Assembly (NCBI GenBank): GCA_945834475.1
Contig: CAMAHK010000020.1
Coordinates: 1 to 32,359, forward strand
From: an uncultured Verrucomicrobiota bacterium
GTDB lineage: Bacteria; Verrucomicrobiota; Kiritimatiellia; RFP12; UBA1067
Direction of reading: 5' to 3'
DNA length: 32,359 bases
A program made the translations under genes and the position numbers. Each line of letters begins with the position of its first letter. Position 1 is the stretch's first letter. The notes under the pieces were generated by a model. That model was not told the DNA's origin, searched no databases, and worked only from the letters and a program-made list of their open reading frames with translations. Shown here one piece after another: positions 2,940-13,823 of the stretch.

Positions 2940-3185
2940 ATGAGCTGGCAAGATATCGTCAAAACAGAGGAGTATAAGTCCGTGGTGACAGATTACCGCG
3001 CGACGTGCCTTTGGTTTGCCGGCGATGTCTTGCATCCAGAGACGGACGTACAGCTTGAACAGGTCCTTGATGCCATTGAGACCAATGGGGACATGGCGGC
3101 GTTTAAACGTGTAGGGAGAATCAGACGATGGCTGTCACCCGATTTCAGGCCGAAGTACTCAAGCGGATTGCCCGTTCGCGCATAA
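2940..3185 (+). CDS. Small conserved-type protein, partner of the nucleotidyltransferase
   Basis: This 81-residue soluble protein has no signal peptide or membrane segment. Its ATG lies 25 bases after a possible -10 (2910-2915), with no strong ribosome binding site. Its central part, with an aromatic/aspartate patch (LWFAGDV) and a following helix ending in RIRRWL, resembles to me the short proteins often encoded just before AbiEii-like nucleotidyltransferases; that is recollection, not a search result. Its last 58 bases overlap the start of the nucleotidyltransferase gene in another frame, which suggests coupled translation and an antitoxin-like or accessory role. Toxin-antitoxin function is an inference. 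Confidence 0.55.
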   Translation: MSWQDIVKTEEYKSVVTDYRATCLWFAGDVLHPETDVQLEQVLDAIETNGDMAAFKRVGRIRRWLSPDFRPKYSSGLPVRA

Positions 3186-3544
3186 AGAACGGGGAGACCT
3201 ATGTAGCAGGCGGACTCGCGCTCAATTATCAGTTGGGGCGTCCGAGGCTCTCGTCAGACATTGACGTCTTCAACAACAGCTATGATGCGCTGGTAGCTGC
3301 CGCGGCTGCCGATCGCGCGGCGTTGGTGGAGGCCGGCTACACGATTGACGTTAAACGCGAACGTGACTTCATCATAGAGGTCACGGCATCCAAGGGCGGC
3401 GAGTCGACGGATTTGCAGTGGGTGCAGGATGCGGCGTCGAAGGCAACGGGGCTGAGGTTGGTTGCGGAGCCGTATGATGAGGCGAATCCGGACGTGGGCG
3501 GCCTGTATGTCGAGCGTCGGGGGCTGGTGCTGCTTTCCCAGTAG
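3128..3544 (+). CDS. Truncated AbiEii-like nucleotidyltransferase with a beta-strand-repeat C-terminal tail
   Basis: Residues 1-101 look like the N-terminal half of a nucleotidyltransferase of the AbiEii/MNT superfamily. The helix-turn GGLALNYQLGRPRLSSDIDVF has the GG...hhh...R.S.DID signature in which the two aspartates bind metal and nucleotide. A downstream LQWVQD fits the family's third conserved stretch. From about residue 102 the sequence leaves the family and instead matches the last 30 or so residues of the beta-strand-repeat protein at 186-2903 (AASKATG against AAAKAKG; GLYVERRGLVLLSQ against GLSVGRKGLVLLFQ). Full-length relatives are usually about twice as long. The gene is therefore probably a broken enzyme spliced by recombination to a paralogue's 3' end, and likely inactive or altered. 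Confidence 0.6.
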   Translation: MAVTRFQAEVLKRIARSRIKNGETYVAGGLALNYQLGRPRLSSDIDVFNNSYDALVAAAAADRAALVEAGYTIDVKRERDFIIEVTASKGGESTDLQWVQDAASKATGLRLVAEPYDEANPDVGGLYVERRGLVLLSQ

Positions 3545-3550
3545 GAACTT

Positions 3551-3585
3551 GGAAACGCCGCGGGCGGGGACGCACCGCGGTACGG
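3551..3585 (-). repeat. Solo half of the CCGTACCG palindromic repeat (copy A)
   Basis: This 35-bp stretch matches the right half of the full element at 18379-18413 at 34 of 35 positions and ends in the same CGGTACGG terminus. It fills most of the gap between the nucleotidyltransferase and metallophosphoesterase genes. Its last two bases contribute to GGAGGGG (3584-3590), the ribosome binding site of the gene starting at 3599. Confidence 0.85.
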
Positions 3586-3598
3586 AGGGGCGGTTGAT

Positions 3599-5074
3599 AT
3601 GAATAGACGGGCGTTTTTGCAGGGGTTCTTGGCTTCGGCGGGATTTGTCTCGCTGGGCGGGAGTCGCAATTTGTTTGCGGCGCCGGCGGGTTGGAGTCCG
3701 GCCGGGAAGGCGAATCTTACCTTTGGTGTCTTGAGCGATCTGCACGTGCGGCTCTGGAAGGATGGGAAGTCCCTTAGCTACCATCACGACACGAAGACGT
3801 TCCGCAAGGCGCTTGAGTACTTCAAGTCGCGCGGCGTCGACGCGGTGATGATTGCGGGCGACCTCGCCGACAAGGGTCTCACGGACGAACTGGAGGCGAT
3901 CGCACAGGTGTGGTACGAGGTCTTCCCCGAGGGCTGCGGCGTCGAGAAGATCTTTGTCTACGGTAACCACGACCTCGACGGACACAACTACGGCAACTAT
4001 GCCGCGCAGTGTTTCAAGGATGAGGATATCCGCAAGCAACATATTCTCGCGACGGACATGAAGGGCAACTGGGAGCGCATCTTCCACGAATCCGAATCGT
4101 CCGTTTTCATGAAGACCGTCAAAGGCTACCGCTTCATCGGCTCGCAGTGGGATCACCACATCGAATGCGAGGGCGGCGACTTCGGGACGCTTTTGAAGCC
4201 GTTCCTTGACGCGCACAAGGACGAACTTACGGGCGACAAGCCGTTCTTCTACGTGCAGCACGCGCACCTCAAGGACACGGTGTTCGGTCCCTGGGCCTGG
4301 GGTCACGACGACGGCGGCGCGACCGCCGCGCTTTCGGCGTATCCGAACGCGGTCGCATTCTCGGGACACTCCCATTTCTCCGAAACGGACGAGCGCGCGA
4401 TCTGGCAGGGGGCGTTCACGGCCGTCTGCTGTTCGTCGCTTCGCTACACGGGTCTCATCGACTGCTTCCGTGGCGACGTGAAGCCCGATTACGAAAACGG
4501 CTTTTCGGGCGGCGAGTCGGCGATCATGCCGCGCTACGATTCGAACGACGGACAGCAGGGTCTCCTCGTGAGCGTCTACGACGACGCAATCGTCTACGAA
4601 CGCCACGACTTCCGCTACGGCCGCAAGCTCGGTGCGGACTGGGTGCAGATGCTAGTACCCGGCGTGACCTCACGCCGTGGCGCTGATTCGCAACCCCCGT
4701 TCGCCTTTGAACCCCGCAAGGCGAAGGAGGTGCCGCCGGCTTTCGCTGCGGATGCGACGATCACGACGAAGACGACCGAGGGCAAGAAGCGCGGGAAGGG
4801 ACGCCAGCCGACGCTGGAGGCAATCGAGATCCGCTTCCCGGCGGCGAACGCGAGCGTGACGCGTCCGTACGGGTACCGGGTGCGGGTGGGCGAAGTCGAG
4901 CGGTTTGTGTTGGCGCAGGGGTATAACATGCCGCTTGAGGACCAGCGGGCTCAGGGCGAGTCGTACATCACGCTTGCGAAGGCGATTCTGCCAAAGGGTG
5001 AGAAGCTGAAAGTCACGGTCGAACCATTCTCCTCCTTCGGCACTTTCGGCAACCCAATCGAAGGCTCGCTCTGA
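3599..5074 (+). CDS. Tat-exported calcineurin-like metallophosphoesterase
   Basis: This 491-residue protein belongs to the calcineurin-like phosphoesterase superfamily, which hydrolyses phosphomono- or diesters with two metals. The metal-binding motifs appear in order: D47-x-H49 (SDLH), G87-D88, G122-N-H-D125, H221-x-H223 and G256-H-S-H259. The N-terminus (NRRAFLQGFLASAG) has a twin arginine and a hydrophobic stretch, so export through Tat is expected. About 170 residues after the core form a beta-rich tail of unknown role. The substrate cannot be named; relatives include nucleotidases and sugar-phosphate or phospholipid phosphatases. Its TGA overlaps the ATG of the transporter gene (TGATG at 5072-5076), implying translational coupling. 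Confidence 0.85.
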   Translation: MNRRAFLQGFLASAGFVSLGGSRNLFAAPAGWSPAGKANLTFGVLSDLHVRLWKDGKSLSYHHDTKTFRKALEYFKSRGVDAVMIAGDLADKGLTDELEAIAQVWYEVFPEGCGVEKIFVYGNHDLDGHNYGNYAAQCFKDEDIRKQHILATDMKGNWERIFHESESSVFMKTVKGYRFIGSQWDHHIECEGGDFGTLLKPFLDAHKDELTGDKPFFYVQHAHLKDTVFGPWAWGHDDGGATAALSAYPNAVAFSGHSHFSETDERAIWQGAFTAVCCSSLRYTGLIDCFRGDVKPDYENGFSGGESAIMPRYDSNDGQQGLLVSVYDDAIVYERHDFRYGRKLGADWVQMLVPGVTSRRGADSQPPFAFEPRKAKEVPPAFAADATITTKTTEGKKRGKGRQPTLEAIEIRFPAANASVTRPYGYRVRVGEVERFVLAQGYNMPLEDQRAQGESYITLAKAILPKGEKLKVTVEPFSSFGTFGNPIEGSL

Positions 5075-6165
5075 TGGAGAAAACCTCCCGCCATTGTCCA
5101 CCTCCACCTCATCTCTCCACTTCTTTCTCACTCTCCACTTTGTTCTTGCTCTTCCTCGAGCTCTTCAAGATCTCGCTTTTCATCATCGGAGGCGGGTATA
5201 CCATCATTGCGGCGGCAGACCAGACGTTTGCCAAGAAGGGGTGGACAAAGGAGGGCGAGCTCCTCGACCATTTGCCGATCTTTCAGATGATTCCGGGGCT
5301 CATCGCGACGCACACGGCCGTCTACGTCGGGCGCAAGGTCGCGGGACGTCTCGGCGCGGCGGTCGGCGTTCTCGCGGTTGCGCTCCCGAGCATCATCATC
5401 TTTACGGGCGTTGCAATGGGCTACCAGGCGATCCCGCTTGGGAATCCGTACCTCGAATCAGCGTTCGTCGGGCTTCGAAGTGCGCTCACCGGTATCATTG
5501 CGGCAACGATCATTCGCGGCTGGAAGAAGTCCCTCCCCGACGCCTTCGCCTATGGTGTCGGCGTGGCCGCGCTCGCGGCGCTCCTCGCGGGCGTGGCGGT
5601 CCCGTGGGTCTTGGCCGGGGCGATGATTTTAGGCGTAGGCTCAGGGTGTAGGGGTGCGAAGGAAAAGAAGACATCCTCCGCTCTACACCTACGCCTTTCG
5701 ACTACACCTATAGCCCTCCTCCTCTTCCTCAAGTACGGGGCGCTTTGCTTTGGCGGCGGATTCGTGCTGGTGCCAATGTATATTGAGGACTTTGTCGGTC
5801 CGACGGCGCATTTCTTGCAGATTACGACGGAAGAATTTGCGAACCTGATGGCGCTCACGCAGATGACGCCCGGTCCGATCGGGGTCAATGGGGCGACCTA
5901 CTTCGGTTTTCAGCTCGCAGGGATCCCCGGGGCGGTGCTCGCCTCGATATTTTTGCTCCTGCCGGGCTCGTTGCTCGCGTATCTGGCCTTTGCCTCGCTC
6001 GAGCGCTTTCAGACGAGCCGAATCGTCCGCGGTATTTTGCGCGGCGTCAAGCCCGCGTCCGTCGCGCTGATGCTGGTTGCGCTCGTTGCCTTCGCGAAAA
6101 TGAGTGTCTTTGGCAGACAAGAATTTAATACAATCGCGTTGATAATTGCTATAATATGTACTCTT
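5074..6165 (+). CDS. chrA: Two-domain chromate-type (ChrA/CHR family) membrane transporter
   Basis: Two homologous CHR domains are visible. The first covers residues about 28-185 (GGGYTII near 39 and PGLIATHTAVYVG near 90); the second covers about 210-385 (FGGGFVLVPM and PGPIGVNGATYFG). In known members this architecture exports chromate by proton antiport, but gut relatives may carry other oxyanions. Residues 1-27 are an unusual Ser/Leu/Pro-rich extension from CT-rich DNA. The linker between domains (5629-5712) is a degenerate 7-bp repeat. There is no stop codon before the next gene: the frame runs on through 6166 to 9924. I end the entry just before the ATG at 6166 only for convenience, because the expected last membrane helix (about residues 367-388) lies beyond it and doubles as the next protein's signal peptide. 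Confidence 0.75.
5629..5712. repeat. Degenerate heptad repeat with inverted arms in the transporter linker
   Basis: TAGGCGT/AGGCTCA/GGGTGTA reads in 7-base steps from 5630. The opposite-strand version CTACACC/TACGCCT/TTCGACT/ACACCTA runs from 5683. CTACACCTA occurs twice (5683-5691 and 5702-5710). The two sides are partly complementary and can pair. The stretch is translated in frame as a hydrophilic, low-complexity linker between the two transporter domains, where length change would be tolerated. Confidence 0.6.
6147..6155 (+). promoter_or_regulatory. Internal extended -10 promoter for the DUF3857/transglutaminase gene
   Basis: TGCTATAAT lies inside the open frame at the end of the transporter. 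TATAAT ends at 6155 and the first ATG begins at 6166, ten bases later, with no ribosome binding site between. A transcript starting about seven bases after the hexamer would be nearly leaderless. No clear -35 is seen. Its match to the promoters at 16592-16600 and 26482-26490 supports a real start here. Confidence 0.6.
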
Positions 6166-9100
6166 ATGACGATGAAGAAGAAATTGAATGTTGTGCTCCT
6201 CGTGGTTCTGGCGTCGCTGGCGGCGACGGCCGTGCGGGCGGACGAGGTGACAGTCGAACGTTTCCCTGATGCGGATTCGGTGCTCGTCGACAGTCTGTCG
6301 AAGATTACTTACAAGCCGGACGGTTCTTATGAGGAGATCAGCGAGAGCTGGACGAAGATCCTGACCGAGAAGGGGCGGCGCGACGAAAGTGTCATTTCGA
6401 TGCGCTACTCGAAGCGCTACGGCAACGCCGAGATCCTGTATGTCGGCGCGATCGGCACGAACGGCGTCGAGCGTGTGATCGACATTTCGAAGACGACGAA
6501 GGAGTCGACGGACAACTCGTCGATGTCCGTCAACATCTACGATCCGCTCGACCGGCGCATCGTCTGCACGATTCCGAACCTGAAGGTCGGCGAGACCGTC
6601 CACACGAAGACGCGCTCGGCTGAGACGAAGGCGCGCTGCGAGGGCGTCTGGAGCGACATCAACGTCTTCGAGTGGTCGTGTCCGATCCTGAAGTCGACGG
6701 TCGAGATCACAGCCCCGAAGGAACTACCGCTCAAGAAGAAGACGATCCTGAATCCCCTCGGCAATGTGACGGCGACGGAGAAGGAGCTTGCGGACGGCTC
6801 GATCCTGCACACGTGGGTCGCGACCAATTCGCCGCAGTGCTTCCCCGAGCCGGCGATGCCGCGCCTCTTCACCGAGGTGCAGCACATGCGCGTTTCGACG
6901 GCCGAGACGTGGGAGGAGCTCTCGCAGTGGTACTGGAACCTCTGCCTGCCGCACATCATGAAGACGACGCCGGCGATGACGAACAAGGTCGAGGAAGTGC
7001 TGGTCGGGCTGAAGGACGACGATGCGAAGATCCGCGCGATCTTCAAGTTTGTCTCGCAGGAGATCCGCTACATGGGGCTCACGATGGAAGACACGTCCCC
7101 CGGCTACGCGCCGCACGACATCGATGTCACGTTCGACAACCGCTACGGCGTCTGCCGCGACAAGGCGGGGCTCCTGGTGGCGTTGCTGCGCATTGCGGGC
7201 TTCGAGGCGTATCCCGTCCTCATCCACGTCGCCGAGAAGATCGACCCGTCCGTGCCGCGTCCCTTCTTCAATCATGCGATCGTCGCCGTGGACCGTGGGA
7301 GTCGCTCTTACATGCTGATGGACCCGACGAACGAGAACGCGAAGGACCTCTTCCCGGCGTACGAGAGCGACAAGAGCTACCTCGTGGCGCGTCCCGACGG
7401 GGAGACGCTGCTGACGACGCCGATCCCGACGGCCGAGCATAACCAGCTCAAGGTCAATTCGCACGCGCGGCTCGCGCAGGACGGTTCGATGTTCCTCGAG
7501 AACGAGATCTTCTTCAACGGCATCAACGACTCCGTCTACCGCGAGAGCTTCGTGAAGATGACGAGCGAGGCGCGCACGAAGTTTTTCGAGCGCGTCGTCA
7601 GGGCGGTCGCGCCGGGCGCGGAGCTCGTGCGCTGCTCGGTCGAGCCGGAGAACATGCTCGACACCGAGACGCCGATCCGCGTCGTGCTGTCGTCGCGCCT
7701 TCCCGAGGCGGTGCTTCCGGGCGAGACGTGCGGCGAACTGATGGTGCCGTTCGTGACGCGCGCCCTCGGCATGGCGAACTTCATTCTGAACGGCAACACG
7801 GCGCTTGAGAAGCGGCGCTTCAAGCTGACGCTCGACTCGACGGCGTCCGTCTGCGAGACGATCGAGATCGAGCTCAACGGCGCGCTCGGCGCGGTGAAGG
7901 AGCTTCCGGGCGACGAGGCGATCCAGGGCGGCTACAACTACAACCGTTCGTTCCGGTATGCGGACGGCAAGCTTACGGCGCACCGCTGCGCGGCGGTGAC
8001 GTCCGTCGAGTTCACGCCGGAGGAGTACGCGCAGCTCCGGGAGGACATCAAGCGCACTGAGGCGGCGGAGCGGAAGCGTCCAGTCTTCTTCAACGACCGT
8101 ACGTCGGGGGCGGACGTTCGGTGGCGTCTCGAGTCGACGGAAGTCGACATCTTCGGTCCGCACAGCTGGGTTAGTACGAATCGTATCGAGAAGGAAATTC
8201 TCACGTACGAGGGTAAGAAGAGCTCAGCAGAACTCAAGTTCTCTTATAATCCCGCGATCCAGGATTTGAAGCTCCTTTCGGCGAGCGTCCGCAACAAGGA
8301 CGGCACGGAGTACGCGGTCTCGGAGAAGGAGATCAACGTGATGGACTGCGGCTGGGCGGCCGCGGCGCCGCGCTATCCGGCCGGCAAGCTCCTCGTCGTC
8401 AACCTGCCGTCCGTCGAGATCGGCAGCACGATCAGCTACACGCTCGTCAACGTGATGACGAACGCGCCGGCCTCGTTCTACACGACGTTCGGCTTTGACG
8501 CGAAGGATCCGCTTGACCGCCGTTATGTGCGCCTCAACGATTGGACACGCGAGGTGATCAATCCGCGGCGCATCCCGAATGAGCCCGGCCAGCCCTATTC
8601 GTCGCTCTGGCGCGACCAACTCATCGTCTCGTCCAACGACTTCTCGCAGCTGATGGCCGAATTCCGCGCGGCGGACGACGCGGCGGTAGGCACGGACGCG
8701 GCGCTCGAGGCGGCACTCGAGACGATTGCGAAGGAGGAGCAGGCGACACTCGTCGGCACGAACGGCGTCGTCGCGATCCGCAACTGGATGACGAAGCACG
8801 TCTCGGTCGCGGGGCCCTCGCTCTGGGAGCTGCCGTTCAAGGACCAGTTCACGTCCCCCGACGTGATTCTCGCCGAGCGCTACGCGACGCGCGTCGACTA
8901 TGTGCGCACGCTCGCAGCGCTCTATCGCGCGGCGGGCTACGAGGCGGATGTCGTCCTCGCGGGCACAGACGCGGCCTACCCGGAGGACCTCCGCAAGCGG
9001 ACGCGCTACGAGAAGCCGAACGCCTACGAGTTCGCCCACGCGCTCTGCCGCGTGACGGTGAAGTCGGGCGGGTTCCTCGGCTTCTTCCGGGATTCGGTGA

Positions 9101-9924
9101 CGTACTTCGTCGGCACGGAGAACGAGTACTTGCCGCTCGGCATCTGCGCGTATCAGGGCAACGGATTCCTCGATCCGTCGACGGCCGAGTTCGGTACGGT
9201 GATCGTGCCGCAGGACGGGACGTACTACTACGACTACACGTCGCAGACGAAGGAACTCGAGGTGCGCGAGAACGGCGGCGTTGACATGGTCGTCAAGACT
9301 GTGTTGTGGGGCAATCCCGTCGGGGCGTTCCGCAAGCAGTACGCGGAGATCCTGCCCGAGGACCGCAACCGACTCCACCAGAAGATTCTTGGCTCGATCG
9401 CGCAGGCCGCGACGGCGACGGGCGAGCTCGAGGCGGACATCACGAGCTATCCGGCGCGCCGCGAATTCAAGTGCTTCGTGCCCGACTACGCGACGGTGGC
9501 GGGCGACACAATCACGCTGCAGCTGCCGGCGCTGATCTCGACGATTCCGAACTATGCAGGCAAGGTTCGCCGCACACCATTCGCCGTGGCGGGCGCAGGG
9601 GCCGAGGACGAGACGTACGTCATTCGTTTCCCTGAGGGCTACACCGAGATCGAGCATCTGCCTCAGTCGTTTACGTTCGCGAATCCCTACGACAGCAACT
9701 TCCCGTGGCTCGTCGCGAAGGTGGCTTCACGTATTGACGACGACGGCCGTCTCGTGGTCGAGATCCGCCGCGACGTGAAGGGTCGGACATATTCGTGGTA
9801 CTACGCCGATTTCATCGAGCTTATCCGCGACCGCAACCGGATCGCCGCCTCGCGGGCGAACCGGACGATCGTGGTGCGCAAGACCGTACCGTCCGCGTCC
9901 TCGCGGACTGGCGCTGGCAAGTAA
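6166..9924 (+). CDS. Secreted DUF3857/transglutaminase-like tandem protein
   Basis: Starting at ATG 6166 (or 6172), this is a 1252-residue protein with a clear signal peptide (MKKK start, hydrophobic core, cleavage after VRA). It contains two DUF3857-plus-transglutaminase-core units. The first has the papain-like triad: C330 in YGVCRDKAG, H370 in FFNHAIVAVD and D386 in MLMDPTNE. The second (about residues 700-1000) keeps the fold signature ERYATRVDYVRTLAALYRAAGYEA but has Arg in place of the Cys and Gly in place of the Asp, with only H958 retained, so it is probably non-catalytic. Related proteins are periplasmic and often sit near sugar- or peptide-processing genes, but no substrate is established here. 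The reading frame is continuous with the upstream transporter. The last 13 residues are encoded by repeat copy D. Confidence 0.8.
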   Translation: MTMKKKLNVVLLVVLASLAATAVRADEVTVERFPDADSVLVDSLSKITYKPDGSYEEISESWTKILTEKGRRDESVISMRYSKRYGNAEILYVGAIGTNGVERVIDISKTTKESTDNSSMSVNIYDPLDRRIVCTIPNLKVGETVHTKTRSAETKARCEGVWSDINVFEWSCPILKSTVEITAPKELPLKKKTILNPLGNVTATEKELADGSILHTWVATNSPQCFPEPAMPRLFTEVQHMRVSTAETWEELSQWYWNLCLPHIMKTTPAMTNKVEEVLVGLKDDDAKIRAIFKFVSQEIRYMGLTMEDTSPGYAPHDIDVTFDNRYGVCRDKAGLLVALLRIAGFEAYPVLIHVAEKIDPSVPRPFFNHAIVAVDRGSRSYMLMDPTNENAKDLFPAYESDKSYLVARPDGETLLTTPIPTAEHNQLKVNSHARLAQDGSMFLENEIFFNGINDSVYRESFVKMTSEARTKFFERVVRAVAPGAELVRCSVEPENMLDTETPIRVVLSSRLPEAVLPGETCGELMVPFVTRALGMANFILNGNTALEKRRFKLTLDSTASVCETIEIELNGALGAVKELPGDEAIQGGYNYNRSFRYADGKLTAHRCAAVTSVEFTPEEYAQLREDIKRTEAAERKRPVFFNDRTSGADVRWRLESTEVDIFGPHSWVSTNRIEKEILTYEGKKSSAELKFSYNPAIQDLKLLSASVRNKDGTEYAVSEKEINVMDCGWAAAAPRYPAGKLLVVNLPSVEIGSTISYTLVNVMTNAPASFYTTFGFDAKDPLDRRYVRLNDWTREVINPRRIPNEPGQPYSSLWRDQLIVSSNDFSQLMAEFRAADDAAVGTDAALEAALETIAKEEQATLVGTNGVVAIRNWMTKHVSVAGPSLWELPFKDQFTSPDVILAERYATRVDYVRTLAALYRAAGYEADVVLAGTDAAYPEDLRKRTRYEKPNAYEFAHALCRVTVKSGGFLGFFRDSVTYFVGTENEYLPLGICAYQGNGFLDPSTAEFGTVIVPQDGTYYYDYTSQTKELEVRENGGVDMVVKTVLWGNPVGAFRKQYAEILPEDRNRLHQKILGSIAQAATATGELEADITSYPARREFKCFVPDYATVAGDTITLQLPALISTIPNYAGKVRRTPFAVAGAGAEDETYVIRFPEGYTEIEHLPQSFTFANPYDSNFPWLVAKVASRIDDDGRLVVEIRRDVKGRTYSWYYADFIELIRDRNRIAASRANRTIVVRKTVPSASSRTGAGK
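9884..9917 (+). repeat. Solo half of the CCGTACCG palindromic repeat (copy D), coding
   Basis: This 34-bp stretch begins CCGTACCG and folds as GTCCGCG (9891-9897), loop TCCT, CGCGGAC (9902-9908). Its first 33 bases match the reverse complement of 11587-11619 in copy B at 29 positions. Two of the four differences are a paired C-G to T-A change that preserves the stem. It encodes the C-terminal residues VPSASSRTGAG of the secreted protein. Confidence 0.8.
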
Positions 9925-11027: not shown

Positions 11028-11096
11028 GGTTGTTGGTTGCGGGTTGTTGGTTGTTGGTTGCTGGTTGTTGGTTGAGGTCGATGGTTGAGGTTGACG
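11028..11096. repeat. GGTTGNN heptad tandem repeat
   Basis: Seven uninterrupted 7-bp units beginning GGTTG run from 11028 to 11076, followed by degenerate units up to the ATG at 11097. It starts two bases after the sialidase stop codon and fills the whole gap to the symporter gene. It contains the only Shine-Dalgarno-like bases (GAGG, 11087-11090) for that gene, so change in repeat number might affect its translation. Confidence 0.85.
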
Positions 11097-13823
11097 ATGG
11101 AATGGCTTAAGCGTCTTGTTTGGGTGGCTTTGCTTGCGCCTGTGGCGCAGGCGACGCCGGTTGAGGTTCAGTGGGGAGCGGTCGAAACGCTGCCCGCGAA
11201 GGTGGCACGTCCCTTCGGCGGCTTCCTGCCGGACGGTGCGTTCCTCGTCGCCGGCGGCAGCGACTTCGTCGACGGCGTCAAGGTTTACGGCGATTCCGTC
11301 TGCGTGCGGCGGGCCAACGCCGCGGTCGAGACGGCTCGCGGTACGGGGGCGGGGGACGTCTGGACGGTCGTCGGGCGTTTGTCGCATCGCGTCGCCGAGG
11401 GCGTCTCGTGCGAAGTGCCGACGGGTGTCTTCTGCGCGGGCGGTACCGACGGCGACACCGACTACGCCGACGCCTACATCTTCGACCCGCAAGTTCCGAT
11501 GGCTGCTACCGTACCGTCGCGGCCTTCGGCTGTCTCGCTTCGCTCGGCTGCGTCCTCAGCGACTGGCACTGGCCAGCCGACTGTTACCGCGCCTGTCCGT
11601 GAGGACACGGACGGTACGGGTGTGCCTGTCGTTCCGACGCGAGCCCTCGCGCCTTTGCCTGAGCCTGTGAAGATGGGCGCGGCGGCGGCCGACGGGTCGG
11701 TCGTCTACGTCGTCGGCGCGAAGAAGGTCTGGCGGCTCGATGTCGCGGCCGAAGACGCGGCGTGGGAATTCATCGGCGAAGTCCCCGGACCGGCGCGTGT
11801 GCAGCCGGTTGCGGCGATTCAGAACGGCGACCAGAAGGAGAAAATGCTCGTCGTCTACGGCGGCTTTGACAAGGAGACGTATGCGCCGCTGACCGACGGA
11901 CATGCGTTGATTCTGTCCTCTATTGGAGGAGGCAAGAGTGCCTCCTCCCCGACTTGGAAAACGCTTTCGCCGCTCCCGGAGAAGACAACGGTGATCGGCG
12001 CGGCGTTTCTGCCGTCGGGGCATCAGCACGTTCTTCTGATCGGCGGTTTCGGCTATGACGGCTGGGTTGCCCGGGCGCTCAACAAGTCGACGGAGAAGGA
12101 TCCGGTCAAGCTCGGCTGGCAGCGGAAGATCCTCGCGTACAACTGCGTCACCGACGCGTGGTGCGACTACGGCGAACTCGCGGAGGGCGACGTGCCGCGG
12201 TGCGGCGCGGCGGCGGGACTCAAGAAGGGCAAGACGCCCGAATCGTACGAGCTCGTGATCGCGGGTGGCGAACAGGCGCCGGCCCTGCGCACGGCCGCCG
12301 TCTCGACGGCGTCGTTCCGCAAGACGGGCAAGTTCGGCGCGACAGCCTGGGCGGTCGTCGCCGTCTACGCGCTTCTGATGGTCGGCATGGCCTGTTTCTT
12401 TATCTTCAAGAAGAAGGACGAGAACGACTACTTCCGCGGCGGCGGGAAGATTCCGTGGTATGTCGCGGGCATGTCGATCTTCGCGACGATGCTCTCGTCC
12501 ATTACCTTCATTGCGATTCCGACGCAGGCGTATCTGCAGGACTGGCGGTACTTCGTGATGGCGTTCTTCATCATCGGCATGGCGCCGGTCGCGATCTACT
12601 ACTATTTGCCGTTCTTCTGCCGTCTCGGCATCACCTCGGCGTACGAGTATCTCGAGAAGCGCTTCAACCTGGGCGTGCGGCTCTTCGGCTCGGCGGCGTT
12701 CATCGTCTTCATGGTCTGCCGCGTCGCGGTCGTGACCTTGCTTCCGGCGATCGCGCTTAATGCGGTGACCGGCGTTTCGATCGACACGTGCATTCTCATC
12801 TGCGGCATCCTCACGATGGTCTACTGCTCGCTCGGCGGACTCGAGGCCGTCATCTGGTCGGACTTCGTGCAGGGCATCGTGCTCATGGGCGGTGCGGTCT
12901 CGGTGCTGGTGCTCCTCATCTGCAAGACGGGCGGCGTCGGTGCGTTCTGGACGGTTGCCGCGTCGTATGATAAGAACACGCTCTGGGACTTCCGCTTCCT
13001 CTTCTCGCAGCCCGTCTTCTGGGTCGTCGCGGTGCAGGGCCTCATCTCGAACCTCTCGAGCTACACCTCGGACCAGTGCGTCATCCAGCGTTACATCGCG
13101 ACGCCGGACGAGAACGCGACGAAGCGCTCGCTGTGGTTCAACGGCTGCATGTCGGTCTTTGCGCAGGTCGTCTTCTACGGCATCGGCATGGCGCTCTTCG
13201 CGTTCTATCACACGCATCCGGCGGCGATGGACGTGACGATGCCGAAGGGCGATTCGATCCTGCCGATCTTCATGGCGACGGAAATGCCGCCGTGGCTCGC
13301 GGGTCTCGTGATCGCGGCGGTCTTCGCGGCGACGATCTCAACGCTCTCCGCCAACCTGAGCTCGGCCTCGACGGCGATTGTGACGGACTTCATCAAGCGC
13401 TTCAATCCGACGATCTCGGGCAAGGCGCAGATCCGATCGGGACAGGTCTGCACGTACGTGATCGGCGTCCTCGGCATCACCGTGGCGCTCATCCTCTCGC
13501 GCATGGAGTCGTCGGCCCTCTTCGACAACTTCAACAAGTACATCGCGATGCTGACGGCGGGTTTGACGGGGCTCTTCTTCATGGGCGTCTTCCTGCCGCG
13601 CATCAAGGGCTGGGCGGCGGTTCTCGGTCTCATCGCGAACTACTTCGTCTGCTTCAGCTGTGAGATTCTCAATTGCAATGTCTTCGGCCTCAAGTTCCAT
13701 CCGTTCCTTCTGGGCGGCATCGGGCTCGTGGTCTGCGTCGCGACGGCGACGGTTGCGTCCTTCCTTTTCCGCGAGAAGGGACACGACCTCACGGGGCTGA
13801 CGATCAAGACGCTGAAGAAGTAA
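11097..13823 (+). CDS. Kelch/mutarotase-like domain fused to a sodium:solute symporter
   Basis: This protein has 908 residues from ATG 11097; a TTG at 11085 lies inside the repeat and is less likely. Residues 1-19 are a signal peptide. Residues about 20-410 form kelch-type beta-propeller blades (PFGGFLPDGAFLVAGG, LVVYGGFD, HVLLIGGFGYDG, YELVIAGGEQ), like the NanM-type cyclically permuted mutarotase. From about 413 to 905 is an SSS-family transporter with a dozen or so membrane segments, including SLGGLEAVIWSDFVQG and TLSANLSSASTAIVTDF. The likely task is to equilibrate sialic acid anomers outside the membrane and import them with sodium, in line with the sialidase just upstream. Substrate is inferred from context. 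Two palindromic insertions lie in the propeller (11509-11619 and 11925-11948). No nanA, nanE or nanK is in the window. Confidence 0.8.
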   Translation: MEWLKRLVWVALLAPVAQATPVEVQWGAVETLPAKVARPFGGFLPDGAFLVAGGSDFVDGVKVYGDSVCVRRANAAVETARGTGAGDVWTVVGRLSHRVAEGVSCEVPTGVFCAGGTDGDTDYADAYIFDPQVPMAATVPSRPSAVSLRSAASSATGTGQPTVTAPVREDTDGTGVPVVPTRALAPLPEPVKMGAAAADGSVVYVVGAKKVWRLDVAAEDAAWEFIGEVPGPARVQPVAAIQNGDQKEKMLVVYGGFDKETYAPLTDGHALILSSIGGGKSASSPTWKTLSPLPEKTTVIGAAFLPSGHQHVLLIGGFGYDGWVARALNKSTEKDPVKLGWQRKILAYNCVTDAWCDYGELAEGDVPRCGAAAGLKKGKTPESYELVIAGGEQAPALRTAAVSTASFRKTGKFGATAWAVVAVYALLMVGMACFFIFKKKDENDYFRGGGKIPWYVAGMSIFATMLSSITFIAIPTQAYLQDWRYFVMAFFIIGMAPVAIYYYLPFFCRLGITSAYEYLEKRFNLGVRLFGSAAFIVFMVCRVAVVTLLPAIALNAVTGVSIDTCILICGILTMVYCSLGGLEAVIWSDFVQGIVLMGGAVSVLVLLICKTGGVGAFWTVAASYDKNTLWDFRFLFSQPVFWVVAVQGLISNLSSYTSDQCVIQRYIATPDENATKRSLWFNGCMSVFAQVVFYGIGMALFAFYHTHPAAMDVTMPKGDSILPIFMATEMPPWLAGLVIAAVFAATISTLSANLSSASTAIVTDFIKRFNPTISGKAQIRSGQVCTYVIGVLGITVALILSRMESSALFDNFNKYIAMLTAGLTGLFFMGVFLPRIKGWAAVLGLIANYFVCFSCEILNCNVFGLKFHPFLLGGIGLVVCVATATVASFLFREKGHDLTGLTIKTLKK
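11509..11619 (-). repeat. Full palindromic repeat element (copy B) inside the kelch domain
   Basis: This 111-bp element is bounded by CCGTACCGTC (11509-11518) and its exact reverse complement GACGGTACGG (11610-11619). The right half folds as GTCCGTG (11595-11601), loop AGGA, CACGGAC (11606-11612). The core at 11519-11550 matches the reverse complement of 18332-18363 (copy C) at 30 of 32 positions, so B and C carry the core in opposite orientations. At 37 codons it keeps the frame and adds a Ser/Ala/Thr-rich loop at residues 138-175. Confidence 0.85.
11925..11948. repeat. Perfect 9-bp hairpin within the kelch-domain coding sequence
   Basis: GGAGGAGGC (11925-11933), a six-base loop, and its exact complement GCCTCCTCC (11940-11948) lie in frame and encode a Gly/Ser-rich stretch (IGGGKSASS). 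It differs in sequence from the CCGTACCG family. It may be a second kind of small palindromic insertion; only one copy is in the window. Confidence 0.6.

Follow-up and report, generated by a model that had tools for sequence, protein, structure and literature searches.

REPs are usually described as extragenic. Di Nocera et al. recorded intragenic REPs, most of them in Opitutus terrae and Rickettsia conorii, as well as REP subfamilies that carry alternative complementary stem residues (PMC3733652). Compensatory changes in REPIN hairpins were reported by Bertels and Rainey (PMC3116915). The precedent for recognition of such a hairpin as single-stranded DNA is TnpA-REP, whose guide-recognition residues are W94, Q95, and R104 (PMC6006769). 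The RPEs of Rickettsia are in-frame insertions in conserved proteins, and the one in Gmk was shown to be translated in an active protein (PMC2229807).

Here we describe hairpin units in a 32,359-nt stretch of DNA, the whole of which we call the window, together with their relatives in the rest of the genome. We consider it likely, with a probability of roughly 0.8, that they form a non-autonomous family of the REP/REPIN type that is driven by a RAYT encoded on contig C1 and whose copies in genes are retained when they are in frame.

Hairpin units in the window and across the genome

A sequence-only reading of the window had claimed that repeat copy D and the reverse complement of the right half of copy B form the same hairpin, in unrelated reading frames, and differ by a compensatory base change. 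Both hairpins are as described: D (9884-9917) reads CCGTACC GTCCGCG TCCT CGCGGAC TGGCG, and the right half of B, read from 11619 down to 11586, is CCGTACC GTCCGTG TCCT CACGGAC AGGCG. The 4 mismatches in 33 aligned bases were upheld, at positions 13, 20, 26, and 32, and a further mismatch lies at position 34. Positions 13 and 20 make up one stem pair, C-G in D and T-A in B-right. The frames are indeed different, D being in sense register 1 (ACC GTA CCG TCC) and B-right in antisense register 0.

A search of the 2.57-Mb genome gave 91 exact matches to the pattern CCGTACCG-N(2,10)-GTCCTC and 0 to the reversed pattern. On these counts and the covariation controls given below, we rejected chance. 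A covariance model with a threshold of E<=0.1 returned no fewer than 155 copies of type II, BLAST and covariance searches placed the family at well over 100 places in the genome, and a script counted 268 units within the 464 kb that was read. The unit counts are lower bounds, as these 464 kb are only a part of the 2.57 Mb. The genome itself is a draft, about 86% complete. We conclude that D and B-right are units of a genome-specific, probably mobile hairpin family of the REP/REPIN type that is present in high copy number.

A unit is about 38 to 40 nt long and consists of CCGTACC, the stem-loop, (N)GGCG, and a tail of about 8 nt, in that order. The stem has 7 bp, or 9 bp if the flanking CC/GG is counted, and the loop has 3 to 4 nt of pyrimidine. 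Type I units run CCGTACC, 7-bp stem, TCCT, AGGCG, tail. Type II units depart from this by a 1-nt bulge in the 5' arm, with loops of TCCT, TCCC, or TCT. Single units account for 147 of 202 clusters, and 40 of 66 pairs of neighboring units stand tail to tail. The 8-nt tail has the variants TCTCCAAG, CTGACAAG, and GGTAACAG, which may be traces of the target or may mark subfamilies.

The family extends beyond B and D, with seven units in the window (Table 1). A repeat of about 33 nt (CAGCCGAGCGAAGCGACGCAGCCGAAGGCCGCG-like) is found at 11522-11554 and 18329-18360 of the window and also elsewhere in the genome; about 20 units have it nested in their hairpin. This nested repeat could be a third mobile piece, or it could mark a subfamily of units with an extended loop. 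The window also contains one copy of a second hairpin family, unrelated to the first, and another copy is in frame in a MurD-like ORF. We counted 60 copies of it in 464 kb, with 0 for the reversed-pattern control, and it has alternative complementary stems (CGCGACA-AGAG-TGTCGCG, CGAGGCA-AGAG-TGCCTCG, and others).

Table 1. Units, host ORFs, and associated features (positions in the window unless a contig is named)
Feature	Position	Strand	Description	Support
A	3547..3585	-	Type II, between ORF 3128-3544 and ORF 3599-5074	R2 61.5 bits
D	9884..9921	+	Type I, 7-bp stem, TCCT loop	R1 58.7 bits
C-terminal codons supplied by D	end of ORF 5074-9924		Last codons of host ORF, TVPSASSRTGAGK	Sequence
E	11309..11346	-	Type II, 3-nt loop; missed by the sequence-only reading	R2 36 bits
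B-left	11509..11576	+	Type I, split by nested repeat of ~33 nt (GCGGCCTTCGGCTGTCTCGCTTCGCTCGGCTGC)	R1 23.9 bits
B-right	11582..11619	-	Type I (GTCCGTG-TCCT-CACGGAC), tail to tail with B-left	R1 62.2 bits
C-left	18304..18371	+	Type II with nested repeat of ~33 nt	R2 22.5 bits
C-right	18376..18414	-	Type II, inverted tail-to-tail pair with C-left	R2 61.9 bits
Second-family copy	11925..11948	+	GGAGGAGGCA-AGAG-TGCCTCCTCC, unrelated hairpin family; apparently in-frame insertion in epimerase-symporter ORF	
Host ORF of D	5074..9924	+	Chromate transporter / transglutaminase / DUF3857 domains	
Host ORF of B, E, and second-family copy	11085..13823	+	N-acetylneuraminate epimerase-like + sodium:solute symporter	
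Host ORF of C	17661..19184	+	B12-binding / radical SAM protein; insertion in linker between both domains	
RAYT-like ORF	C1:14093-14761 (= L100:2093-2761)	-	222 aa	NCBIfam NF047646

We looked for the family in 39 relatives, 23 of them from the same genus, and found it in none of these by pattern or by covariance model. Each relative gave 0 to 1 random-looking matches to the exact pattern, against 91 in the family's own genome. With R2 at E<=1e-4, the own genome was the sole match among 40 genomes.

Conservation of the fold

The covariation score was 0.309 for type I, compared with a shuffled mean of 0.108 and values of at most 0.064 for slid versions. For type II it was 0.259, compared with 0.087 and at most 0.086, respectively. 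An R-scape-like test on a tree covered 69 distinct core haplotypes and 435 column pairs, under a null that keeps the substitutions per column. The five top-ranked pairs out of the 435 were stem pairs, and the stem scores summed to 304, where the null reached 72 at most. Four of the five were significant (E<=0.045), but the pair that distinguishes D from B (columns 13-20), which ranked fifth, was not significant when taken alone (E=1.27). The copies used in this run had been preselected for the hairpin. Therefore, we recounted the pairing fraction in copies gathered without a pairing requirement and found the full 7-bp stem in 186 of 195. Thus, because stem pairs head the covariation ranking and nearly all copies retain all 7 pairs, the hairpin fold is conserved.

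Paired changes could also have a purely mutational origin. In template switching within the hairpin (quasipalindrome correction), one arm is copied to the other, and no selection on the fold is involved. Such one-step events fit the observation that many paired changes share a branch of the tree, in 4 of 4-5 cases for columns 12-21, 3 of 3 for columns 9-24, and 2 of 2 for columns 11-22. However, copying of the arms should erase the 1-nt bulge in the 5' arm of type II, which persists amid covarying pairs, and G.T intermediates exist. Template switching also leaves the copy number and the proximity to a RAYT gene unexplained, and we consider it an unlikely source of the pattern. In the reading that we prefer, the C1 RAYT recognizes the single-stranded form of the hairpin, and this would account for the fact that mutations in the stem persist mostly in complementary pairs.

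Copies inside genes

Genes were called with a small 3-periodic coding model that had been trained on the window and assigned 115 of 118 training segments correctly; calls beyond the window depend on this model. By these calls, 72 of 196 clusters lie within a gene that continues past them in the same frame and without a stop, while 8 change the frame and 3 meet a stop. The same-frame criterion held for 793 of 2,000 random positions, a fraction similar to that of the clusters (Fisher P=0.44). Units are not depleted in genes. Among the gene-internal clusters, the frame is open in 72 of 83, where one-third would be expected (P ~1e-23). Introns or programmed bypassing of the inserts are disfavored by this count, because bypassed DNA need not keep the frame.

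We assigned registers to 97 gene-internal units; sense register 1 (TVPRCVLARGVSK-like) had 36 and antisense register 0 (LGDAAGETHRGT- or LETPRARTHRGT-like) had 39. These data qualify the earlier claim that the fold, and not the encoded peptide, is selected. The fold is kept, but to leave out the peptide is too strong, as translated copies must also stay in frame. Since gene-internal copies are mostly open and mostly in two of the six registers, the peptide is filtered too.

Dozens of housekeeping genes carry in-frame copies. The hosts, named by eye from the sequence save those with Pfam or PDB support, include the tRNA synthetases LeuRS, AlaRS, ProRS, and ArgRS and also GltX. Further hosts are GltB, MetH, ThrC, MurE, MurB, PrmA, DnaG, RNase HII, FolP, IspA, QueA, GatA, and Era. 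Congener proteins lack the inserts of the window. This holds for C, which sits in the linker of the B12/radical SAM protein and was compared with seven aligned homologues, for both B and E in the epimerase-symporter, and for D at the C terminus of the transglutaminase-like protein. Copy E adds about 12 aa to its host that are not present in congener proteins, and congener proteins align to the host of D only up to about residue 628 of the 640-aa query. Inserts are likewise missing from congener ProRS, Era (twice), and others. In comparisons with solved PDB homologues, the second insert of MurE was evident, the insertion in RNase HII was only partly shown, and that in GltX was not cleanly shown.

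The net insertion of a single unit relative to congeners is about 7 to 17 aa, with approximate ends and with natural loop variation as a confounder. A fixed net insertion length was not supported: lengths vary, and host 19 (1 of 9 alignments) had no net insertion. Among gene-internal copies that are in frame, the TCT (3-nt) loop is roughly as frequent as the TCCT (4-nt) loop. These loops differ by 1 nt and yet the copies are in frame, so the tail length or the flanking bases must compensate.

Selection could instead act on RNA, with the hairpin kept for a role in mRNA stability, in attenuation, or as a structured regulatory element. The stable stem and short loop would suit such a role, and REPs elsewhere are thought to work as RNA elements (PMC3733652). 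However, the orientations in genes are about equal (43 sense and 54 antisense; P=0.31), copies stand mid-ORF in many unrelated ORFs, and a search of Rfam gave no match. An RNA-level role is therefore very improbable in our view. Because copies occur in host genes in both orientations, the fold is most likely read by a transposase as single-stranded DNA rather than as RNA.

The candidate transposase and known systems

There are ten Y1-transposase matches in the genome. The RAYT-like ORF on C1, which is intact, matched NF047646 (REP-associated tyrosine transposase) with E=2.6e-16 and 59.8 bits against a curated cut-off of 80 bits, and Pfam Y1_Tnp with 20.7 bits against a cut-off of 23. It has weak similarity to the TnpA-REP structure 4er8 (E=0.14) and carries the HUH motif MPNHLHV and the tyrosine. 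At W94, Q95, and R104 (E. coli numbering, placed by eye on the 4er8 alignment), it has W, R, and R, so that Q95 is replaced by R. RAYT matches in the relatives are only 28 to 49% identical, and a close named relative of the C1 RAYT was sought in the species collection, which gave only matches of 27 to 29% identity.

Nine units lie within 2 kb of the C1 RAYT, on both sides, against about 0.5 expected (Poisson P ~3e-9, with the genome count as a lower bound). It is conceivable that the family is an RPE-like selfish element moved by some other enzyme, such as the C24 Y1 transposase, with the C1 RAYT serving only as an insertion target. Several units are within 2 kb of the C24 Y1 ORF, so the assignment of units to one RAYT is not unique. 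CGTC repeats, including Rickettsia RPE-4/6, are without a dedicated transposase (PMC3733652), and genes here are struck about as often as random positions. However, units directly flank the C1 RAYT, the nearest about 30 and 75 nt away, at a density far above background. In addition, the second hairpin family flanks and enters a RAYT-like ORF on C17 (L106 = C17:29500-32864; 1861-2047 and 2848-2945), which fits one RAYT per family. We regard movement by another enzyme as quite unlikely.

Beside the C1 RAYT (C1:13765-15459 = L100 1766-3460), there are larger tandem segments of about 280 to 310 bp. They contain extra GGTAACAG-type repeats and resemble an amplified REP cluster. A RAYT-like ORF of the congener G007 (L152 / L158) contains the tandem in-frame peptides DVARAPRPC and KAGGGLATSRSAVDGAVAWEG. 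This suggests that other species of the genus carry intragenic repeat families of their own.

In the mechanism that we propose, the C1 RAYT, an HUH/tyrosine transposase, would recognize the single-stranded form of the hairpin and place copies of it elsewhere in the genome, genes included. Selection would then remove copies that break the frame, and copies with an open frame would stay. Retained inserts would be translated, as about 7 to 17 aa for single units and about 35 to 45 aa for inverted pairs, and the peptides are probably tolerated passengers. The mechanism builds on direct observations, namely, the family itself, its covariation, the nearby RAYT, the absence from relatives, and the in-frame inserts missing from congener proteins. 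A more far-reaching version is that the RAYT-driven family inserts in genes about as readily as elsewhere and has acquired features that make it translatable (few stops in most registers, two registers strongly preferred), so that the housekeeping proteins of one genome are strewn with recent peptides from mobile DNA, that at least two independent RAYT/hairpin pairs do this in that genome, and that an altered guide pocket of the RAYT reads a different tag. We offer this version tentatively and would not call it probable.

The route by which in-frame palindromes spread in Rickettsia is, to our knowledge, still an open question. Here, a family with RPE-like behavior adjoins its probable transposase. 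It is young enough that species of the same genus are without the inserted peptides, and many essential enzymes have been struck. This amounts to a natural experiment on where proteins tolerate 7 to 45 extra residues, on how a RAYT picks its hairpin when GTAG is lacking, and on whether new segments of proteins originate from mobile DNA.

The family shares with the REP/REPIN and RAYT systems (Pseudomonas, E. coli, and Opitutus terrae GTAG families; PMC3733652, PMC3116915, PMC6006769) its short high-copy hairpins, subfamilies with complementary stem residues, inverted doublets, unit-flanked RAYT-like gene, and species restriction. With at least 268 units, stems of 7 to 9 bp, and loops of 3 to 4 nt, it is within the size range of REP hairpins (about 20 to 40 nt, stem of 5 to 13 bp, short loop), and, as in a REPtron, units flank the RAYT-like gene (C1:14093-14761). 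In REPINs, the replicative unit is an inverted doublet that folds into a single long hairpin; here most adjacent pairs are tail to tail (40 of 66), but most clusters are single units (147 of 202). The family differs in that pairs are mostly tail to tail with near-zero spacers and relatives have no match. In place of the GTAG/GTGG tag 0 to 2 nt 5' of the hairpin foot, CCGTACC supplies GTAC or CGTA, depending on the stem definition. Canonical guide recognition by W94, Q95, and R104 is altered by the change of Q95 to R. The location is not predominantly extragenic, with 72 of 196 clusters in genes.

Like the RPEs of Rickettsia and Wolbachia (RPE-1, and RPE-4/RPE-6, which are CGTC repeats; PMC2229807, PMC3733652), the family places palindromic DNA in frame in many conserved genes, and the insertions are missing from orthologues. 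RPEs give extra translated peptides, and the units here probably do as well. RPE-1 is longer, at 105 to 146 bp compared with the unit of about 40 nt. RPE-4/6 have a CGTC tag, a stem of 8 to 9 bp, a loop of 4 to 5 nt, and no linked transposase, whereas here there is no conserved CGTC tag and a RAYT is adjacent. The subterminal hairpins of IS200/IS605 are alike in that an enzyme of the same HUH/tyrosine family recognizes a single-stranded hairpin there and probably does so here. They differ in that the units here are solitary or paired, and in their surroundings we saw no autonomous IS that has a left and a right end. Since defining features of GTAG REPs and of RPEs were looked for and are lacking in this family, we do not file it under either. 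Its kind is already known from intragenic REPs and RPEs, and it appears to work like both. It is set apart by the lack of a GTAG/GTGG guide, the change at RAYT position 95, and insertion into genes at about the random rate.
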